This document shows, piece after piece, positions 6,158-63,667 of a stretch of DNA of 64,000 bases; position 1 is the stretch's first letter; every line of letters begins with the position of its first letter. The notes under the pieces were generated by a model, which was not told the DNA's origin, did no database searches, and worked only from the letters and a program-made list of their open reading frames with translations. Source of the stretch: Leptobrachium leishanense (lineage: Eukaryota > Chordata > Amphibia > Anura > Megophryidae); NCBI GenBank assembly GCA_009667805.1, contig CM019063.1, positions 59,008,881 through 59,072,880 of the forward strand, written 5' to 3'. The position numbers were made by a program, and so were the translations under genes.

Positions 6158-6640
6158 CATGTTTACGGGTCATTATGTTACATGTTTACAGGTGCATTCT
6201 GTATATAGTCACTATGTTACATGTTTACAGGCGCATTCTGTATATAGTCACTATGTTACACGTTACAGGTGCATTCTGTATATAGTCACTATGTTACATG
6301 TTTACAGGCGCATTCTGTATATAGTCACTATGTTACATGTTTACAGGTGCATTCTGTATATAGTCACTATGTTACATGTTTACAGGTGCATTCTGTATTT
6401 AGTCACTATGTTACATGTTTACAGGTGCATTCTGTATATAGTCACTATGTTACATGTTTACAGGCGCATTCTGTATATAGTCACTATGTTACATGTTTAC
6501 AGGTGCATTCTGTATATAGTCATTATGTTACATGTTTACAGGTGCATTCTGTATATAGTCACTATGTTACATGTTTACAGGTGCATTCTGTATTTAATCA
6601 CTATGTTACATGTTTACAGGTGCATTCTGTATCGCGGTAA
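6158..6640. repeat. 39-bp minisatellite, about 12 units
   Basis: The tandem unit begins GTCACTATGTTACATG and continues through TTTACAGGTGCATTCTGTAT before the next copy, total 39 bp. Units differ by single bases (GGTGC/GGCGC, TATATA/TATTTA). One unit near 6253 lacks a few bases. Because 39 is a multiple of three, two forward frames stay open across the array, giving a repeated 13-residue peptide. That is a property of the unit length, not evidence of a gene. Confidence 0.95.
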
Positions 6641-9365: not shown

Positions 9366-10160
9366 ACGCTTTTACCCGCGGCTTCGCTCGCGTGGATTTT
9401 GGAATTTTTTAAAGTTGTTAAAACCATTTTCACCCCCCACTTGTGATTTTTGGAAAATGGTAAAACACGTGTTTATTTATTTTTCAAGGAGATCGTAAGT
9501 GCCAAATTTCACACCTGCAACATATTTGGTTTTCGAAATATAGATATGCTGATAAAAGTAACCACAACCCTTTCCTCCATCCCCCCTTATCTGGATTTTC
9601 GGAAAATGCTAAAGCACATTTGTTTTTTTTGGACAAAGATTGTGACTACTGAATTTCACACCTGTAACAGCTTTGTTTTTTGAAATATAGGTATACTGAT
9701 AAAAGTGTTGAACCCTCCTTTTTGCCCCTCCACTGGATTTTTGGAAAATGGTAAAATATGTGTTTTTTATTTTTGAAGACAAATCTAAATACCAATTTTC
9801 AGGCCTGTAACATTTTCTGTTTTTGAGATATAGATATCCTGTTTAAAATATTCAACCCCCTTTTTTCGGCCCCCCACTTGGATTTTTGAAAAACGGTAAA
9901 ATACATTTTTTTTTATTTTTCAAGACGTATCTAAATACCAATTTTCACGTCTGTAACATCTTCTGTTTTTGAGCTATAGGTATCCTGTTTAAAATATCCA
10001 ATCCCCTTTTTCACCCCCTTAGGGGTAGAGTTTCCAAAAATCCTTCCTTAGTGGGGGCCTATGTCATAAAAACAGTGTACGTTTAAAATTTCACATTCCT
10101 AGGTTAAACGGCTTCAGTTGGGCGTTGATGGGTCAGTCAGTCAGTCAGGACTTTCGTATT
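9366..10160 (-). mobile_element. Helitron-like element, non-coding
   Basis: On the minus strand the 3' end reads GCGAGCGAAGCCGCGGG followed by TAAAAGC, an end hairpin like those at 32000 and 34889, although the terminal CTAG is mutated here. The 5' end contains CTGACTGACTGACTG and CATCAACGCCC near 10130. Between them are about five degenerate units of about 140 bp, each with TATACCTATA-like and TTTTACCATTTTCC motifs. No Rep or helicase frame is present. Confidence 0.65.
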
Positions 10161-10164
10161 TATA

Positions 10165-10773
10165 CACACTATATTGCCAAACGTATTCACTCACCCATCC
10201 AAATAATCAGAATCAGGAGTTCCAATCACTTCTATGGCCACAGGTATATAAAATCAAGCACCTAGGCATGCAGACTGTTTTTACAAACATTTGTGAAAGA
10301 ATGGGTCGCTCTCAGGAGCTCAGTGAATTCCAGCGTGGAACTGTGATAGGATGCCACCTGTGCAACAAATCCACTTGTGAAGTTTCCTCGCTCCTAAATA
10401 TTCCACAGTCAACGGTAAGCTGTATTCTAAGAACGTGGAAGTGTTTGGGAACGACAGCAACTCAGCCACGAAGTGGAAGGCCACGTAAACTGACGGAGCG
10501 GGGTCAGTGGATGCTGAGGCGCATAGTGCGAAGAGGTCGCCAACTTTCTGCAGAGTCAATCGCTGCACAAATGCGCTTCTGGAAGAATGGTCAAAAATTC
10601 CCATAAACACACTCCTAAACCTTGTGGACAGCCTTCCCAGAAGAGTTGAAGCTGTTATAGCTGCAAAGGGTGGACCGACGTCATATTGAACCCTATGGAT
10701 TAGGAATGGGATGTCACTTAAATTCATATGCGAGTCAAGGCAGGTGAGCGAATACTTTTGGCAATACAGTGTA
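10165..10773 (+). mobile_element. Tc1-like transposon, internally deleted
   Basis: Terminal repeats CACTATATTGCCAAACG (left) and, reverse-complemented, CACTGTATTGCCAAAAG (right) are typical Tc1 ends, with TA at each boundary. At about 610 bp it is less than half the usual 1.2-1.6 kb. The transposase is truncated by an internal deletion. The left side abuts the 5' end of the Helitron-like element, so one of the two probably inserted in or next to the other. Confidence 0.9.
10301..10606 (+). pseudogene. Tc1 transposase, DNA-binding half only
   Basis: Starting at Met 10301, the frame begins MGRSQELSEFQRGTVIG, then gives the first helix-turn-helix (TCEVSSLLNIPQSTVSCIL), the GRPRKL hook and the second recognition domain (MLRRIVRRGRQLSAESIAAQ). 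The normal protein binds the terminal repeats and cuts DNA with a DDE catalytic domain. Here, after SIAAQ, sequence jumps to a C-terminal stretch (in another frame LLEEWSKIP then INTLLNLVDSLPRRVEAVI), so the whole catalytic centre is missing. The copy could at most bind DNA and is non-autonomous. Confidence 0.88.
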
Positions 10774-17173: not shown

Positions 17174-18294
17174 GGTCCCATCTAAATATTTGTATTGGGT
17201 CTCTGTGAGTGTGACCACTGGTTCTCAGTGATATTAGACACAATTCATTGAATTTTTTTCACTATAAATTACCATTACTACTTAGCCCTGGTTTATTATT
17301 CTTCTCTGACATTCATCACCAGTACTTGAATAATTTCATCTTGACATTTCTCCCTAGAGGAATGTGGTATTTATTTCCTTTTTCACATGTTTTCCCGCTC
17401 TATATAGGGATTGGTATATGTATAAATTGATGAAATAAAGAAAATGCATAAAAGAAGGTGTAATTACGATTCACTTACTCCCCTCATTGTCCTTATTATC
17501 ATCCATTATACTCTAAAACCCGCACTGATTGGTCGCAGCAGGTAGAAGTTATGTGTTTGTGTATATATTATACAGTCATATAAAATAATTCACTGTAGAA
17601 GCAACTCAGGGAACCCGATGTCGTAAAGGCCAAACACATTTAGCGTGAATATAACAACATGTTTATTTTATTGTATTGAATTGTTTATATGCTTTTTAAA
17701 CTTAAAACCTGCTGCAGACTTTATGAATACGGTTTGATTATAACCTCCTACAAAAAAATCCGAACGGAAATCTGATTTCCTTGATAATGATAGAATGAAT
17801 AGTGATTGCTAAAATACAAGATTTATTAAGGACGATTGATGCTTACAAATAGTTCCTACACTTAAATAGGAACGTTAATTTGAATTTACATTAATTGTCT
17901 ACCCAAATCAATCTATATATTGGATGGGCCACCTTATTTCATATCGATCGGAATATTGATAGGTTTTATATAGGCAGGACAATCACTGAAATAGTAATTA
18001 AAGAATGAATATCGGGCACGTTCGGCTACTATGGCAATAAAATTCCTTCTGGACGCTGCCCCTATTGATGCCTTTTCGGCGCATGCGCAATACGAACGTT
18101 TGGAAAGTAGACTGTGGGGAAGAAAAATGGGAAGGTCTAATAATGGAACGCATACCGGATGTCTGCAATGACCCACACGCTAAGACATGTACAATTAACA
18201 ACGGATATCACAACGGAAACGAACCCAATGGAGTATCAGCTGAAAATCATAAGGGATACTATATATTTATGCAACGGAGGGGAGGACATAAGGT
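17174..18294. other. Unassigned sequence upstream of hammerhead 1
   Basis: No coding sequence that I recognise. If hammerhead 1 lies near the end of a retroelement, the right part of this interval may be its non-coding body, but I see no RT motifs. Confidence 0.4.
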
Positions 18295-18346
18295 AATCGC
18301 TCCTGATGAAGATAGCACTTAGCTATAGAAACGTGTTGAGCAATTG
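18295..18346 (+). ncRNA. Hammerhead ribozyme-like motif 1
   Basis: Core CTGATGA at 18303-18309 and GAAA at 18328-18331. Stem II is ATAGC/GCTAT around a 5-nt loop. Stem I pairs AATCGCTC (18295-18302) with GAGCAATT (18338-18345), 7 of 8 positions. After GAAA comes CGTG, then TT, which matches A15.1, a minimal stem III, U16.1 and H17 = U, placing the predicted cleavage after 18337. Departures from the consensus: one extra A before stem II, and a G/A mismatch at the base of stem II. This open-stem-I (type I) form with a very short helix III is known from amphibian satellites and Penelope-like elements. Confidence 0.6.
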
Positions 18347-18649
18347 TCAATGTCTTTTTAACAGATTAATTTTGGGAAGGTCCCCCATGGTGGTATTTGG
18401 TGGTCTTAATCTATGACTAATATGGGTCAATATAGTGGCATATGTCTAGTATGATTGAAATGCACGACCAGTGTTACCTCATTGTGGAGGTTAAACAGCA
18501 TTAAGCCGTGGGCTTACCTGGCATAATAGTGAAGGAGAGGAATTCTCCATCCTATATTTGTTACACTCTATCGTTATGCCTATAGTTCATGTATGTATAT
18601 GAGGCACAACTTCTATCCAATATATGACAATATATATTGATATACTATG

Positions 18650-23247: not shown

Positions 23248-24087
23248 TTAGGGTATAAATTGCTTTTGTGTGTTCTTCACTCCAAAGTGCATAACTTTAC
23301 ATTTATCTAGATTAAATCTCATCTGCCATTTAAGTGCCCAGTCCCCCAATCTATCTAAATCCCTCTGCAGCGAAGTAACATCCTGCTCACATTGTATTAC
23401 TTTTCCTAGCTTTGTGTCATCTGCAAACACTGATACATGACTTTCAATGCCTATCTCAAGGTCATTTATAAATAAATTGAATAGTATTGGTCCTATAACA
23501 GACCCCTGAGGGACACCACTTACCACTGGTGTCCATCTTGAAAATGTACCATTTATGACCACTCTCTGTACCCTATCTTTTAGCCAGTTTTCTATCCAAG
23601 AACAAGTATTTTCATCTAGACCATTTTTTCTTAATTTAAGTAGTAACCTTTTGTGTGGAACTGTGTCGAACGCTTTGGCAAAATCTAAGTAAATCACATC
23701 CACTGCGACCCCCTGATCTATACTTCTACTTACTTCCTCATAGAACGTAATTAGGTTAGTCTGACATGATCTGTGTTTCATGAAACCATGCTGATTTTTG
23801 CCAATTACATTATACCTCCCAATAAATTCCTGAATATTATCCCTTAGTAACCCCTCAAATACTTTCCCAGCCACAGATGTTAAGCTCACAGGTCTATAAT
23901 TCCCAGGCACAAATTTTAAACCTTTCTTAAATATAGGGATCACGTCAGCTTTTCTCCAATTCTCTGGTACTATTCCTGAAAGAAAAGAATCTTGAAAGAT
24001 TAAGAACAGAGGTTTACATATTTCAACACATAGCTCTCTTAGTACTCGCGGGTGTGAATTCCATCTGGCCCGGGGCTTTATTAACAT
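23248..24087 (-). pseudogene. CR1-A ORF2: reverse-transcriptase domain
   Basis: The 279-codon frame contains the non-LTR RT motifs in order: [51 protein letters not shown] with the first catalytic Asp, GVPQGSVIGPILFNLFINDL, and VFADDTKL with the catalytic Asp pair, then WQMRFNLDKCKVMHFG. It would copy the LINE RNA at the nicked target site. The catalytic residues are all present. The frame is interrupted upstream (24087-24904) and just downstream at 23248, where the C-terminal domain continues in another frame to about 22640. The remainder of the coding region is shifted, so no full-length enzyme can be made. Confidence 0.9.
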
Positions 24088-41942: not shown

Positions 41943-42361
41943 AAATGAAAATGATCACATATTTTAACACTATAAATGCTGGACTCAATGTTGATTCTGG
42001 GTTTTTAACCCATTATCATAACGCCATATAACATTCTAAATTCTGGCTGATGTTTTGTTTTTTCTTGGTTTCTTTTTTTCTTTCATGTCTCTTTCAGCCT
42101 TCACTGTTTTGTGTTTTTGGTTTTTTTCCCCTTTTTTTTTTCTTTCTTTTTTTTCCTTTTTTCGTTCTAGGTTGTATGATCTTATCTGTTGTTTTATTAT
42201 GTGCCCAAGATCCGTCATCCGTTTATTTTCCCATTTTGAACATACCATTTGACTCTCACTTTTTACGACATCTAATACCCCCACCCATGTGATCCTTAAT
42301 ATCCTAATGTTCAATTCTAGGAACTGATCAGTAAGCATCCAGACCTGAGAACGAGGATATA
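41943..42361. other. Unassigned sequence with a pyrimidine-rich tract
   Basis: 42050-42170 is strongly T-rich on this strand. The segment 42180-42360 resembles nothing I can name. Short frames here follow from the biased composition. Confidence 0.45.
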
Positions 42362-43855
42362 CTCTCGAACGCTTGTCTTTTAAATTCCCTACTTGACCCC
42401 CTGCAATCTGGCTTCCGTCCCCTACACTCAACTGAAACTGCCCTCACCAAAGTCACCAACGACCTCCTAACTGCTAAAAAACACGGCCACTATTCTATTC
42501 TCATCCTGCTCGACCTCTCGGCTGCTTTTGACACTGTTGACCACCCCCTCCTTCTACAGACCCTCAACTCTCTGGGTCTCGGTGACACAGCACTCGCTTG
42601 GGTCAAATCCTATTTATCCAACAGGTCCTTCTGTGTGTCCTTTGCTGGAAACTCCTCCTCCTCATTGCCTCTATCTGTTGGTGTACCTCAAGGCTCTGTC
42701 CTTGGTCCTCTGCTCTTTTCCATCTACACCTCCTCCCTGGGCAAAATCATCAACAGCTTTGGCTTCAATTACCACCTCTACGCTGATGACACTCAGATCT
42801 ACCTCTCTACCCCTGATCTCTCTCCCCCTGTCCTTTCAAAAGTCAGTGACTGTTTATCTGGCATCTCCTCCTGGATGGCCTCCCACCACCTAAAGATCAA
42901 CATGTCAAAGACTGAACTCCTACTTATTCCTCCCTCCAATGCCTCCCCACCTCCTGACTTCTCTATCACGGTGGAGGGTATCACCATTTCCCCATCAAAC
43001 CAAGTTCGCTGTCTTGGAGTTACACTTGACTCTGCTCTTTCCTTCATCCCCCACATCAAGTCTCTTTCCTCCTCCTGCCGATACCAACTGCGTAATATTT
43101 CCCGAATTCGGCCATTTCTTACCGCTGTCGCCACAAAACAACTCATACACGCCCTGGTAATCTCCCGACTCGACTATTGCAATAATCTCTTATCTGGCCT
43201 CCCTCTGTCCCGCCTCTCCCCCCTACAATCCATCCTGAACGCCTCCACCAGGCTAATTCACCTCACCCGCCGCTCTGTCTCTGCCGCTCCCCTCTGCGAG
43301 TCCCTTCACTGGCTCCCCATCCACTGCAGAATAAAGTTCAAAATCCTTATCCTTACCTACAAAACCCTCACTAACTCAGCTCCCCACTACCTGTCCTCAC
43401 TAATCACCAAATACACCCCGGCCCGCTCCCTAAGGTCAAACAGTGACCTGCGACTAGCTTCTCCCTGCATCACCTCTTCCCATGATAGACTGCAGGATTT
43501 CTCACGCGCAGCCCCCACTCTCTGGAACGCTCTCCCTCGTACTGTCAGACTTTCCCCTAACTTCTCTTCCTTCAAACGCTCCCTTAAAACGTTCCTATTT
43601 AGGGAAGCCTACCACCCAACTCACTGACGCAACCATCAATCACTCTCACCTTACAGTCCTCTCCTCCTGTTTCCAACCCCAACCCTCCTAGATTGTGAGT
43701 TCCTACGGGAATAGGGCCCTCATCTCCTCCTGTACTGTTTGTCAAATGTTGTTCAATGTATTGTAACCCTGTCTATACTGTGCTTATTGTACAGCGCTGC
43801 GGAATATGCTGGCGCTTTATAAATAAAGAATAATAATAATAATAATAATAATGTA
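42362..43855 (+). CDS. L2 LINE, 5' truncated, RT frame open to its stop
   Basis: A single frame runs from the 5' breakpoint (in frame from 42362) to a stop at 43625-43627, about 420 codons. It has [36 protein letters not shown] with catalytic Asp, [21 protein letters not shown], and [13 protein letters not shown] with the catalytic Asp pair. The C-terminal domain follows: [39 protein letters not shown] and [16 protein letters not shown]. The endonuclease and any ORF1 are lost by truncation, so it cannot move alone. The 3' UTR ends GCGCTTTATAAATAAAG then (AAT)n at 43838-43852. Lack of disabling mutations suggests a recent insertion. Confidence 0.92.
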
Positions 43856-49886: not shown

Positions 49887-50505
49887 AGCAAAATCCAACA
49901 ACAGCAGGAAAAGTTGTTGCAAACAATGGTAGGCAATGCTACCTTCCATTATTCTTTAGTATTGTTCCACCATGGTTTGCATCACGGGTGAATATACAAT
50001 ACAGTAGCACCAACTGATGAAGCTTTTTATGCGAAACGCGTTTTGGTATACTGTATATTTTATTACTAATTAAATTTGCCTTATTTTATGCCTGGATGCT
50101 TATATTCGCCAAGGAGGTGGCTGAGGCTGATAGGTGATCCGGTGCACCTTCTGAAGTCACAGGCTGCCTAAAAATCTGGTGTCTAATCAATAAGACACCA
50201 GCAAATGTGAGTCCGACATTCTTCTCCTTTTTTGCACACCATTTTATACAATATTGCTCTATGTGAGTCATTTTATATTTTTAAGGACACGGAGGATGGT
50301 AACCCTGTAAGGAAACCACACTTCTGAGCCACGGGGTGTAGCATAAGAAACCACTAACAGGACAAGAAGCACCAACTCCAGCACATCTTTCTGTTATAAA
50401 ATCCAACAGCAGGAAAAGTTGTTGCAAACAATGGTAGGCAATGCTACTTTCCATTATTCTTTAGTATTGTCCCACCATGGTTTGCAACACCGGTGAATAT
50501 ACATT
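49887..50505 (+). repeat. 511-bp-period repeat carrying hammerhead 2
   Basis: A 110-bp segment at 49887-49998 (AAAATCCAACAACAGCAGG to GGTGAATATACA) recurs at 50398-50507 with few changes. The start-to-start distance is 511 bp. The hammerhead motif lies once per unit, just right of the first segment, and the second segment stops about 15 bp before a second hammerhead would begin. This is the arrangement expected from a tandem or LTR-like unit of a retrozyme or Penelope-like terminal repeat. No coding frame is present. Confidence 0.65.
50002..50053 (+). ncRNA. Hammerhead ribozyme-like motif 2
   Basis: Core CTGATGA (50014-50020), then A, then stem II GC/GC, then GAAA (50033-50036). Stem I pairs ACCAA (50009-50013) with TTGGT (50043-50047), then an internal loop (GC opposite A), then CAGTA (50002-50006) with TACTG (50049-50053): ten base pairs. 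After GAAA comes CGCG and TT, that is A15.1, minimal stem III, U16.1 and H17 = U, predicting cleavage after 50042. ACGCGT is self-complementary, so two copies could pair through stem III. The extra A before stem II departs from CUGAUGAG. Confidence 0.72.
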
Positions 50506-50507
50506 AA

Positions 50508-53560: not shown

Positions 53561-56374
53561 TTATCTTTTGTTTAGGATAGCCTTATGCCTATCCCATGCC
53601 TGCTTAAATTCAATTACTGTTTTGGCCTCTACCACTTCAACTGGAAGACTGTTCCATGTATCCACCACCCGCTCAGTAAAATAATGCTTCCTGATGTTAC
53701 TTTTAAACCTTTGCCCCTCTAATCTAAGACTATGTCCTCTTGTTTTGCTATTTTGTTTCCTTTTAAATATACTCCCTTCCTCTACCTTGTGGATTCCCTT
53801 TACGTATTTAAATGTTTCTATCATATCTCCTCTGTCTCGTCTTTTTTCCAAGCTGTACATGTTAAGATCATTAAGCCTTTCCTGGTAACTTTTCTCCTTC
53901 AAGCCATACACCATTTTAGTAGCCCTTCTCTGAATTCTCTCTAAGATGTCTATATCCTTTTGGAGATACGGTCTCCAGTACTGCACACAGTACTCCAAGT
54001 GAGGTCTCACCAGTGCTCTGTACAGTGGCATGAGCACTTCCCTTTTCCTACTGCTAATACCTCTCCCTACACAACCAAGCATTCTGCCAGCATTTCCTGC
54101 TGCTCTATTACATTGACTACTTACCCTTAGATCCTCTGTAATAATGACCCCTAAATCTCTTTCCTCAGATGTTGAGGTTAGGAGGACTGTATCAAATATT
54201 CTATATTCAGCCCTTGGGTTTTTACGTCCCAGGTGCATTATCTTGCACTTATCCACATTAAAACTCAATTGCCACAACTCCGACCATTTTTTTAGTTTAC
54301 CTAAATCATTTGTCATTTGGCTGATCCCTCCAGGAACGTCAACCCTGTTGCAAATCTTTGTGTCATCAGCAAAAAGACATACTTTTCCATTAATACCTTC
54401 TGCAATATCACTAATAAAAATATTAAAGAGAATGGGTCCAAGTACTGACCCCTGAGGTACCCCACTGGTAACAAGACCTTGCGCCGAATAAACTCCATTT
54501 ACCACAACCCTCTGTTGTCTGTCACTCAGCCACTGCCTAATCCAGTCAACAATATTGGAATCCAAGCTCAAAGATTGCAATTTATTGATAAGCCTTCTAT
54601 GCGGAACAGTATCAAAAGCCTTACTGAAATCTAAATAAGCAATGTCTACTGCACCACCTGTGTCTATTATTTTTGTTTCCCAATCAAAAAAATCAATAAG
54701 ATTAGTTTGGCATGATCTTCCTGAGGTAAACCCATGTTGTTTCTGATCCTGTAATCTATGTGTTTTTAGATGTTCAACAATCCTTTCCTTTAACATGGTT
54801 TCCATTAATTTCCCCACTACTGACGTAAGACTAACTGGCCTATAGTTCCCCGATTCCTCCCTACTACCCTTCTTGTAAATGGGCACAACATTTGCTAATT
54901 TCCAGTCTTCTGGGACGACTCCCGTTAACAAGGATTGGTTAAATAAATCTGTTAATGGTTTTGCTATTACATCACTGAGCTCTTTTAATAATTTAGGGTG
55001 GATCCCATCAGGCCCCATTGACTTATTTGTCTTTACTTTAGACAGCTGCTGTAGAACCTCCTCCTCTGTAAACTGATATGTAAATGTCTCTTTAGTGTTC
55101 TCTCCTAACTGAGGTCCCTTTCCTTCCTTTTCTTCTGCAAAGACTGAACAAAAATATTCATTGAGGCAGTCAGCGAGACTTTTATCCTCTTCTACATACC
55201 TTCCTTCTTTTGTTTTTAATCTAACTAATCCTTGTTTTCCTTTTCTTTTCTCGTTTATGTATCTAAAAAATGTTTTGTCCCCCTTTTTTACTGACTGAGC
55301 TATTCTCTCTTCTGCGTGTGCTTTGGAAGCTCTTATAAATTGCTTTGCCTCTTTCTGCCTAATTTTATTGGTTTGCCTATCTTCTTCACTCTGAGTTTTT
55401 TTATAATTATTGAATGCTATCTTTTTGTTCTTCACTATTTTGGCCACTTCTGCAGAGTACCACAGTGGTTTCTTCCCTTTTTGTGTTTTTGCTAACAAGC
55501 TGAATGCAATTTCCTGTGGCCTTCAATAATGCTTCCTTTAAATAATCCCATTTCTCCTGGACTCCCTTTAAACTCCTCCAGTCTGATAATGACTCCTTCA
55601 CACAAAATCCCATTTTAGAAAAATCAGTTTTTTTAAAGTCTAAAACTTTCGTTCTTGTGTGGTGCGGCTCCATCCCTGTTGTTATATTAAACCATACTGA
55701 CTGGTGATCACTAGATCCCAAATTTTCACCTACAACAACGTCCGATACCAAACCTCCATTTGTGAGTATTAAATCCAATATGGCCTCTTTACGGGTCGGC
55801 TCCTCAACTACTTGTGTTAGAGATAATCCCAGTAGGGAGTTTAGAATATTTGCACTCCTGGTGCACCCAGCTGTTTTGGTTTTCCAGTTCACATCAGGAA
55901 GATTAAAGTCCCCATGATAATAACCTCCCCTTCATTGCCATTTTGGCTATTTCCTCAACCAGCAGATTATCTAGTTCTTCTGCTTGTCCAGGGGGTCTAT
56001 AGATCACACCTACACGAGCTACTGTATGATTGCCAAATGTTAGCGTAACCCAAACTGACTCTATGTTCACCTCGCTCACTTTTATTTGGTTTGTTTCTAT
56101 GTTGTTTTTTCACATACAGGGCCACTCCTCCTCCTTTCCTACCTTCTCTGTCTTTTCTATATAAAGAGTACCCCGGTATTGTTATGTCCCAGTTATTTTT
56201 CTCACTGAACCATGTCTCAGTAACCGCCACTAAATCTACTTTTTCAGCTGCCATCATTGCCTCTAGTTCATTGATTTTATTGACTAAACTGCGAGCATTT
56301 GTAGACACGACTCTGAGCTTGTCATTTTTTACCTCGCATGTTGCTTGCACCCTCCGATTTAGTTTTGGGGACAA
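53561..56374 (-). pseudogene. CR1-B ORF2: endonuclease and reverse transcriptase, few frameshifts
   Basis: Endonuclease part (56374-55407, three frames): VVSTNARSLVNKINELEAM, VTETWFSEKNNWD, KGGGVALYVK, LPDVNWKT, and GSSDHQSVWFNI holding the catalytic Asp-His. RT part (55498-53561, one open frame of 645 codons): [91 protein letters not shown] with the catalytic Asp pair, then the C-terminal domain ending HKAILNKR. Frameshifts lie near 56090 (in a T-run), 55912 and 55500. The start of ORF2 sits about 40 bp after the ORF1 stop. All catalytic residues remain, so only the shifts disable it. Confidence 0.92.
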
Positions 56375-60860: not shown

Positions 60861-62112
60861 TAGGGTTGCACCGATAACGATACTAGTATTGGTATCAGTG
60901 CCGATACCGGGTACTGCAGGAGTACTTGGTACTCGTGCAGTGCCCCCGATATTTCCCCCAATACCAGAAGCCGGCATTGAGCCAGCTTGCCGGCATCCGA
61001 GGGGCTGGGGCCCCTGTCCGAATGCTCTATTGGCATTCGGACAGGCATCTGGAGCTCTCCGCATTCTTTCATACTTTCCTTCCTGAGCGATGCCGGGAAA
61101 GTTTCCGCGCGTGGGCTCGTTGGAAGGGCCCCAGCCGCGATCACGTGGGAGTCCCACGTGATCGCAGCTGGGGGCCTTCCAACGAGTGCACGCGCAATGA
61201 CTTTGCCGGCGTCGCTCAGAAAGGTAAGTATGAAAGAACACGAAGAGCTCCAGGTGCCTGTCTGAATGCTGATAGAGCATTTGGACAGCTGCCCTATGTC
61301 TGTGGTCTGTGTATGTGTAATATATACACATACACACAGAGCTGGGGGCATAATCCATGAGAGCTGGGGGGCATATTCCATGAGCTGGGGGGCATATTCC
61401 ATGAGCTGGGGGAGGCATATTCCATGATCTGGGGGCATATCCATGCGCTGGGGGCATATCCATGCGCTGGGGGCATATCCATAAGAGCTGGGGCATATCC
61501 ATGAGATCTGGGGCATAATCCATGAGATCTGGCGCATATCCATGAGATCTGGGGCATATCCATGAGAGCTGGGGCATATTCCATGAGAGCTGGGGGGCAT
61601 ATCAATGAGCTGGGGGGCATATCCATGAGCTAGGACATATCCATGAGCGGGGGGTATATCCATGAGCTGGGGCATATCCATGTGAGGTGGGGGGCATATC
61701 CATGTGAGCTGGGGGACATATCCATGAGAGCTGGGGTCATATCTATGAGAGCTGGGGGCATATCCATGAGCTGGGGCCAATATTATGAGAGCTGGGGTGC
61801 ATATCCATGAGCTGGGGGGCCATATCCATGAGAGCTGGGGGGCATAATCCATGAGCTGGGTGGCATAATCCATGAGCTGGGGGGCATATCCATGAGCAGT
61901 TGGGCAATATCCATGAGAGCTGGGGGGGCATATCCATGTGACCTGGGGGCATATCCATGAGAGCTGGGGGCATTTTTATATGAGGTCTGTTCTTACTGAA
62001 AAGCATTCACATGACATAAAATAAAAGTATCGGTACTCGGTATCGGTGAGTACTTGAAAAAAGTATCGGTACTTGTACTCGGTCTTAAAAAAGTGGTATC
62101 GGTGCATTCCTA
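60861..62112. mobile_element. hAT MITE with palindromic block and minisatellite
   Basis: Ends TAGGGTTGCACCGATAACG and, reverse-complemented, TAGGAATGCACCGATACC. A perfect 8-bp duplication, GTTATTAG, lies at 60853-60860 and 62113-62120. The left third (60960-61300) is a large imperfect inverted repeat with CGATCACGTGGGAGTCCCAC at its centre. The right part is a minisatellite. The subterminal tracts repeat GGTATCGG/TACTCGG motifs. Confidence 0.88.
61344..61975. repeat. Minisatellite of about 19-22 bp units
   Basis: Units of GAGCTGGGGGGCATATCCAT type repeat about 30 times with small indels. Because unit lengths vary around 21 bp, several reading frames stay open by chance on the minus strand (proline, histidine and tyrosine-rich). 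Confidence 0.92.
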
Positions 62113-62320: not shown

Positions 62321-63098
62321 TTTAAAAATTTTGTTTTGTTTATTTTATGTGCGTGTTTGCATAATTAAAGTGGGCCTATCTGGATAAAGTCCAGGGCCGA
62401 TTTTTCCAACCCTGGTTATGCTGTATCACACCAGAGCAGAGTGGACACTGTGAGTTGTGTCGGTCTGCATTGGGATCAGCTTAAAAACCTGGAACAAAGA
62501 AGCACTGCAATATAAAATGTTGCAACACAAACCTCCATGAACACACCGGAATGTTGTAAAATCATGACATGCATTTATTCATGACCTACAATCTCAAACC
62601 CATACTCTCTCGGAAATGCTGCTCATCTTTCAGGGCTCGAAGTGTATGAAAGGAGATTGTTGTCACATATCATATTGTAAAATAAATATTTTGATTTGCA
62701 CATCGGATACATAGTTACTATCAAAGCGATGTGTACATTTTGTGTTCTCGGCGGCGTATGTCATGATGAAAACCATAGCTCTGACAGGTCATATCAATCA
62801 CTCTACATCCATTATTCAGGATGCAAACCATACCAGTTACGCTCAGGCATACACCATATACTGAATGCCAGCTCATCTGGTTTGTATGCTGACATGAAGA
62901 AATAGCATGAGATTGGTACATAAATATTACAGATGTTCCATGCCAGGAAACCTATCTTTGGACATGAAATGCAATAACATGTTTTTCTAGGGCTATGCAA
63001 TAAATTTTTTGCTCAGACTTAAGTTTTTTCATTCTTTTCTCTATTTTCCATTTGTAATAAACATAAATATAACTTTTAAAACAGAGACACTACAGGAC
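62321..63098. other. Unassigned sequence upstream of hammerhead 3
   Basis: No gene that I recognise. It may include the body of the element that carries hammerhead 3. Confidence 0.4.
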
Positions 63099-63147
63099 AA
63101 TACACCGACTGAGGAAGGCTACCACAGCCGAAACGCGTCTCAGTATT
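63099..63147 (+). ncRNA. Hammerhead ribozyme-like motif 3
   Basis: Core CTGAGGA (63109-63115, position 7 is variable in hammerheads), an extra A, stem II GGCT/AGCC with loop ACCAC, then GAAA (63130-63133). Stem I: GA/TC, an internal loop, then AATAC (63099-63103) with GTATT (63143-63147). After GAAA comes CGCG, T and C, that is minimal stem III, U16.1 and H17 = C, predicting cleavage after 63139. An AATAAA-like signal lies 30 bp downstream at about 63167. Confidence 0.68.
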
Positions 63148-63667
63148 TTCATGTCCCTTTTTATGGAATAAATGTATATTTTTTACCTTTAACCCTTCAT
63201 TGGCTGTGTTTTGCTAATTCCAACCTGATACCTCATGGGAACAACACCACTCGATCTACCAAGGAGGAAAAGAGGTCCAGGGCACCTACCTAAGAGTGCC
63301 TAAGGCTATACTGACTGAGCCTGAGTTTGAAAGGCTCCTTAATTGGTAAGTGCACTGTGTAATTACCTCTGTTTGGTTACCCTGCAGTATTACGCTATGC
63401 GAGCATTGTCTCCCATCTGTTCTTAACTCGTCTAGGACCTGCTACTTGGTAAAGAAGCGAAGTGCCAGTCTCTACATGGCCATAGGCGATTAAACCTAGA
63501 GCCGGGAACCCTTTAGGCTCATTTAAATGTGAGTGGTATATACCTCTACCAGTAATAATCTTTGCCCAATTTGTCATAAGATCTCCTGCACCAAAGATTT
63601 CCCCGTGTGCTTCTCCCTTCTCTTTTATGAAATCGAGGACGTGACGAACTTTCCACCGGAATAAGAA
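63148..63667. other. Unassigned sequence downstream of hammerhead 3
   Basis: No gene or repeat that I can support. Confidence 0.4.

Follow-up and report, generated by a model that had tools for sequence, protein, structure and literature searches.

A hammerhead with an extra core nucleotide at the 5' end of a probable Penelope-like repeat unit in Leptobrachium leishanense

The stretch of Leptobrachium leishanense DNA analysed here (the window, 64,000 nucleotides within an assembly of 3.54 Gb) holds a short sequence around position 50014 that resembles a hammerhead ribozyme, which raises the question of whether it is a genuine self-cleaving RNA, what kind of element carries it and whether an additional nucleotide in its core marks a subgroup or a defect. 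A preliminary description had proposed a hammerhead-like RNA at 50002..50053. Sequence and fold prediction place a type I hammerhead fold with both cores intact at 49999-50056 on the + strand, and fold, shuffles and covariation agree in confirming it over this extent. Its parts are as follows.

49999-50056, + strand: hammerhead motif (sequence, fold, descriptor match)
49999-50006/50049-50056, + strand: outer part of stem I, 8 bp, ATACAGTA/TACTGTAT (sequence, fold)
50009-50013/50043-50047, + strand: inner part of stem I, 5 bp, ACCAA/TTGGT (sequence, fold)
50014-50020, + strand: core CTGATGA (sequence)
50021, + strand: extra A, placed after the CUGANGA core and before stem II (sequence; family alignments)
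50022-50023/50031-50032, + strand: stem II, GC/GC (sequence, fold)
50033-50036, + strand: GAAA core (sequence)
50036-50041, + strand: ACGCGT, self-complementary, with the reduced stem III (A15.1 to U16.1) (sequence, alignment, energies)
50042..50043, + strand: predicted cleavage site, after U17 at 50042 (hammerhead numbering)

A GC/A internal loop, which might take part in the tertiary contact between loops I and II of type I hammerheads, separates the two parts of stem I, which together make 13 bp; the preliminary description had recognised this loop and the ACCAA/TTGGT pairing but had counted ten base pairs. It had also called the motif the best paired of three, which is right for stem I and wrong for stem II, since the latter is the shortest of the three, with only 2 bp and a 7-nt loop (UUUUUAU), a length that had escaped mention. 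The two intact cores, the self-complementary ACGCGT and the correctly placed U at H17 had been noted before and are all seen in the sequence; H17 is hence not G, and A15.1-U16.1 is in place, as in a type I hammerhead. A cut after U17 is predicted to leave a 5'-OH end at TTGGTATACTG. The CUGANGA core is followed not directly by stem II but by one extra nucleotide, and because the known hammerhead alignments described in the excerpted part of PMC10085705 hold at most one or two inserted nucleotides before stem II, this is compatible with membership of the hammerheads. In the predicted lowest-energy single-strand fold, added pairs in the AUGA/UUUU region would block the core, while the ensemble centroid contains stems I and II alone. 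Judged by layout and conserved letters, the motif is a real type I hammerhead for which self-cleavage is predicted.

A descriptor that left the stem III loop letters free, run on both strands of the window, matched at exactly three places, all on the + strand (18303, 50014 and 63109), and the other two are listed here.

18289-18351, + strand: second hammerhead, same kind, from another element family (descriptor; member of the covariation model's alignment)
63095-63153, + strand: third hammerhead, same kind (descriptor; region 65% like the Penelope-like locus L207 over 177 bp)

At 18303, 50014 and 63109, respectively, stem I measures 10, 13 and 7 bp and stem II 5, 2 and 4 bp, and the extra A after CTGATGA is present in all three, as had been observed. 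A chance resemblance could appeal to the short stem II at 50014 and to the Rfam models, which at gathering and at permissive thresholds (E <= 10) reported no hammerhead family for any of the three motifs. Against it, 600 dinucleotide shuffles gave 276 core-only matches, 3 with a stem II of at least 2 bp and a stem I of at least 7 bp, and 0 with a stem I of at least 13 bp. Viral and prokaryotic contigs, where relatives had been sought, held chance core matches only among the matches listed and served as a control: of these 132, 3 passed the thresholds for both stems, and stem I ran to 8 bp at most. Genome-wide, the pattern CTGANGAAGN{6,16}GAAACGCGT has 22,023 exact matches on the two strands (11,022 + 11,001), as opposed to 0 + 1 for a reversed control pattern. 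Together with the covariation described below, these figures leave chance resemblance a practically negligible probability. A literature search by the motif letters returned nothing relevant by title among the matches listed.

Compensatory changes among copies genome-wide, on which the preliminary description had let its reading turn, were found in stems I and II. In an alignment of seven motifs from different elements, 88.0% of cells are paired, with a score of 0.652 as opposed to 0.181 after shuffling and at most 0.125 for slid structures. An alignment of eleven motifs, a set that includes the near relatives L204, L206 and L207, is paired in 90.8% of cells and holds 34 both-side changes vs 9.6 when shuffled, slid structures scoring at most 0.130. 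The two stem III pairs yield no covariation because they never vary. Seven sister copies, which downstream are nearly the same as the 50014 family, have differing stem IIs by eye (GAC/GTC, GCC/GGC).

Motifs of this kind with the extra core base number in the tens of thousands in the genome. Because the genome-wide pattern fixes AAG, including the extra A, the count of matches is neither a test of that base nor proof of its universality; the actual test lies in descriptors that did not ask for it, which in every motif retained turned up a single nucleotide at this place. L142, L146, L159 and L192 (copy flanks), like L204-L207, downstream of Penelope-like frames, have a single nucleotide separating A9 from stem II, and across the eleven aligned motifs it is A in ten and T in one. 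The flank motifs come from 18 printed hits, of which these four were kept by the string GAAACGCGT and not by their stems, seven or eight others were variants of the 50014 family, and six without GAAACGCGT were dropped (listed names L151, L162, L167, L169, L179 twice and L196). The register of stem II agrees. The 100 matches listed, which are the first by coordinate, include 72 distinct ones. If the A is kept out of stem II, the first pair forms in 71 of the 72, whereas with no nucleotide left out 64 have no stem II pair at all and 8 have one, so that stem II pairs only in the register that leaves the A out. The first four stem II pairs are standard in 94% vs 63% when shuffled (highest of 1,000 shuffles, 70%), and position 7 varies freely (G 36, T 23, A 12, C 1). 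Alignment, in eleven of eleven motifs, and register thus support the suggestion made earlier that the extra A may define a variant subgroup, pointing to a family feature as opposed to a defect. As the Rfam models used here did not report this core, annotation may miss part of these ribozymes.

The reduced stem III bears on how the motif might act. In the CGNGU string, C, G, G and U stay the same in all eleven aligned motifs, an invariance to be read with the partial preference of the descriptors for CGNG, and the two stem III pairs together with CGNG keep six bases self-complementary (with G-U pairs in 18303). Such self-complementarity fits use as a dimer. The predicted monomer energy is -6.4 kcal/mol with a one-pair stem III and -12.7 kcal/mol without it, a cost of about 6 kcal/mol. 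In the predicted two-strand fold, ACGCGU:ACGCGU pairing is absent and a competing AUGCG/CGCGU hairpin forms instead, so that neither the lowest-energy monomer nor the two-strand fold is the active hammerhead. Dimer cleavage through ACGCGU is plausible.

The motif stands at the 5' end of a repeat unit bounded by direct repeats.

50000-50398, + strand: one interspersed retroelement unit, non-coding, with the hammerhead at its 5' end (copy comparison)
49890-50001, + strand: left flanking direct repeat, possibly an unusually long target-site duplication (alignment)
50398-50506, + strand: right flanking direct repeat (alignment)

The unit is 399 bp long in the window and about 412 bp in other copies. 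Repeat searches gave 1,714 and 1,560 first-look candidates, 40 of each being scored, and nearly full-length copies are 88-93% identical; an exact 25-mer from the unit has 451 matches in the genome. In 59 distinct copies, the 3' end lies at 400-429 in 39, at 700-719 in 11 and elsewhere in 9. Exact target duplications of 8-13 bp flank 6 of the 59, vs 0.7% of mismatched flank pairs. By eye, 14 of 30 loci have an inverted partner, or a piece of one, at the left end, and neighbouring 25-mers among 100 listed places form nine close -/+ pairs, one +/+ pair and no +/- pair. The direct repeats around the window copy span 112 aligned bases, are 93% alike and abut the element exactly; they represent a staggered target duplication of great length or else a duplication of older date. 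The core is intact in 34 of 58 copies, the inner stems are also kept in 26 and an indel falls within the motif in 12, with a mean of 1.36 changes per position in the core vs 1.82 at other motif positions. Single copies decay, and it must be the source elements that preserve the motif. In the window copy the motif is intact and the sequence above it, where a promoter would be, is unrelated; this copy is an old, probably silent insertion.

What kind of element this is can be approached through its coding relatives. A genome search for the GIY-YIG endonuclease gave 49 matches, all above the cut-off, among 150 scored of 1,534 candidates. Four of these loci, chosen for long open frames, were examined for the hammerhead, and all four have the extra-nucleotide form, which lies downstream of the endonuclease match by 0.6-1.4 kb and shares its strand. 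The frame of L204, one of the four, is 800 aa long and includes a GIY-YIG domain (Pfam, 26.2 bits). Pfam reported no reverse-transcriptase family for this frame; it contains the strings SLYTNIP and YIDDIIFIW, which we take to be reverse-transcriptase signatures of Penelope-like elements (PLEs). Upstream of the L206 frame, L209 holds another hammerhead in inverted orientation; none was found upstream of L204 (L208). From the hammerhead onward the 50014 family is 61% identical to L207 over 276 bp (E 2e-6), and the 63109 region is 65.5% identical to L207 over 177 bp (E 5e-8). In + strand translations of about 3 kb upstream of the three window motifs (stops as X), no reverse transcriptase or GIY-YIG domain was found, the only domain match being to zf-rbx1, far below the cut-off. 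Patterns for PLE protein motifs gave one match in L133-L203 and the window, which was interrupted by a stop and unconvincing. As no coding frame was found nearby, the PLE status of the 50014 family rests on its anatomy, the shared hammerhead and the 61% match. That anatomy, with head-to-head partners, two 3' ends and target duplications, is like that of Penelope elements, for which the sections of PMC3846280 drawn on here report end repeats that lie head-to-head and hold a TATA box, an extension at the 3' end that may be absent, and 8-10 bp target duplications. Minimal type I hammerheads in which stem III is lacking or very short, and which are expected to work in pairs as dimers, are reported from PLEs in PMC7761336 and PMC6155905, which, in the extracts used, summarise Cervera and de la Pena 2014 and Lunse, Weinberg and Breaker 2017. 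The 50014 motif has the type I layout and the minimal stem III in common with these (ACGCGU only here), and may differ from the published consensus by the extra nucleotide seen in all eleven motifs. PLE hammerheads with a reduced stem III are already known, and the interesting parts are the extra-nucleotide core and the probable position at the start of the RNA.

This position was approached through the 5' ends of copies. In a first sample of 66, taken through the hammerhead and hence biased toward 5'-complete copies, the start falls at -3 to +6 in 49; another 10 copies extend upward by 71 bp or more, 6 begin in the interval between these two groups, and a single copy has its start at +57. A second sample of 46 places in 40 stretches was chosen by a 25-mer about 130 bp downstream, not by the 5' end, in coordinate order on C1, leaving out the window's own copy, the L157 pair, L153 and L181. 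Here, 19 of 46 begin at -3 to +6, and eight stop at +9 in the alignment, namely L216 and seven copies of the sister subfamily, whose own homology reaches about the same place by eye. The alignment of L215 starts at +40, but this copy has an internal deletion and its beginning is at +1. About 27 of the 46 thus begin near the first bases of stem I and about 19 elsewhere, four starting higher up and the rest scattering from +8 to +124. None of the 46 begins exactly at the cut site (+43); two, L225 and L237, come to within 5 nt of it, each starting at an inverted junction. Longer copies have a TATA box, TATTTAAA, about 31 nt above the start. With an interval and consensus chosen after the data were seen, three of the seven motif families have a full TATA-like match at 37-45 nt above C3, vs 1.9% of window positions, and by eye such a match lies 38-50 nt above C3 in the four PLE loci. 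No paper recognised in the literature search states a tie between a PLE hammerhead and a start site or TATA box. A G added ahead of the first base, present in 11 of 19 copies starting at +1 in the first sample and 4 of 8 in the second, was not used as a sign of a cap because head-to-head junctions give the same letter. The distance of 26 nt from the core ATG to the cut equals a figure for the anole PLE, a comparison that was dropped as the anole frame starts later. Upstream of the start site in L173 and L174, the promoter-containing stretch is itself present in inverted copies that face one another. At L192:594-637, about 1 kb upstream of a 50014-type copy, there is a hammerhead from a different family; it shares the orientation of that copy, and TATATAAG stands 37 nt above the core of this hammerhead.

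Two other readings of the element have to be weighed. A retrozyme or satellite-type amphibian hammerhead would be a short non-coding repeat whose RNA circularises after double self-cleavage of tandem units, and the size of about 400 bp, the lack of coding capacity and the weak stem III with a palindromic tetraloop all recall it. According to the passages of PMC7229834 consulted, newt satellite and axolotl retrozyme hammerheads have a one-pair stem III, a palindromic tetraloop and, there, dimer action, as would suit the present motif; they are tandem repeats of about 300 bp, whereas the copies here are interspersed, have neighbours that lie head-to-head and count PLEs among their relatives. Tandem units in head-to-tail order, with the cut site as their boundary, were not found: the window copy is single, nine of the ten close pairs among the 100 listed places are head-to-head, the ends of copies coincide with stem I and with two sites downstream, and not with the cut, and the same motif occurs in coding PLEs. 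A retrozyme is thus very unlikely, and of the earlier interpretation the hammerhead and the extra-A subgroup stand, while the comparison with amphibian satellites does not, the element being an interspersed Penelope-like copy and not a tandem array.

An alternative possibility is a relic, decayed or never functional, whose sequence is kept as a promoter, packaging or protein-binding signal and not for cleavage. The near-neutral decay of single copies and the fact that copies do not start at the cut site lend it something, as does the anole PLE PAc, in which hammerhead mutants insert normally in vitro, so that cutting is dispensable for insertion (PMC11167929). A linear protein site is at odds with stems I and II paired via compensatory changes, with fixed letters that are the catalytic ones and with a free N7, all of which fit a hammerhead, and a relic is accordingly improbable in high degree. 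The motif is very probably a type I PLE hammerhead with a reduced stem III and an extra nucleotide, placed at the 5' end of its unit, which would form the start of the transcript and stay mostly uncut in the template RNA; the fold, family, covariation, PLE link and copy-end positions behind this reading are all drawn from sequence.

With the TATA box about 30 nt above, transcription of a source element would most likely start at the first bases of stem I, and the RNA would thus begin with the ribozyme. Because copies tend to start at the first bases of this RNA and not at the cut, the RNA that was reverse-transcribed appears to have been mostly uncut, which suggests that the moved RNA generally escapes cleavage. 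Two RNAs, or the two hammerheads of one RNA with repeated ends, would be expected to pair via ACGCGU, completing stem III and permitting the predicted cut after U17 (50042), while in the template RNA the ribozyme is probably held off, either as a monomer or until a protein helps. An uncut template agrees, by analogy, with PAc in vitro, where cutting needs protein (PMC11167929). PAc likewise has a PLE hammerhead at its end repeat, there without a stem III, and its insertion does not need cutting; its frame starts at stem II and its reverse transcription 111-118 nt into that frame (PMC11167929). In the 50014 family, by contrast, the ends of copies lie about 412 or 712 bp away from the start of the hammerhead, and the unit yielded no frame. 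It is tempting, if on balance rather doubtful, to see PLE hammerheads that begin with the first transcribed nucleotides as gated switches that retire or uncap the RNA or split read-through units, the extra nucleotide taking part in the gating. Were this true, the gate would open once two RNAs pair or the element's protein binds, and templates would stay uncut. Since the 5' ends of many old copies mark the RNA that was copied, the question of an uncut or cut template is partly testable from sequence.

The remainder of the window offers several minor observations. A match to mir-337 at 1444-1513 is below the Rfam threshold (38.7 bits, gathering 80, E 1e-4). By eye, long open frames at 53561-55522 (-), 42335-43627 (+) and 23248-24087 (-) resemble non-LTR reverse transcriptases, and one at 10103-10606 (+) resembles a piece of a Tc1/mariner transposase. 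Minisatellite arrays lie at 61338-61973 (periods 21/41) and 6169-6632 (period 39).
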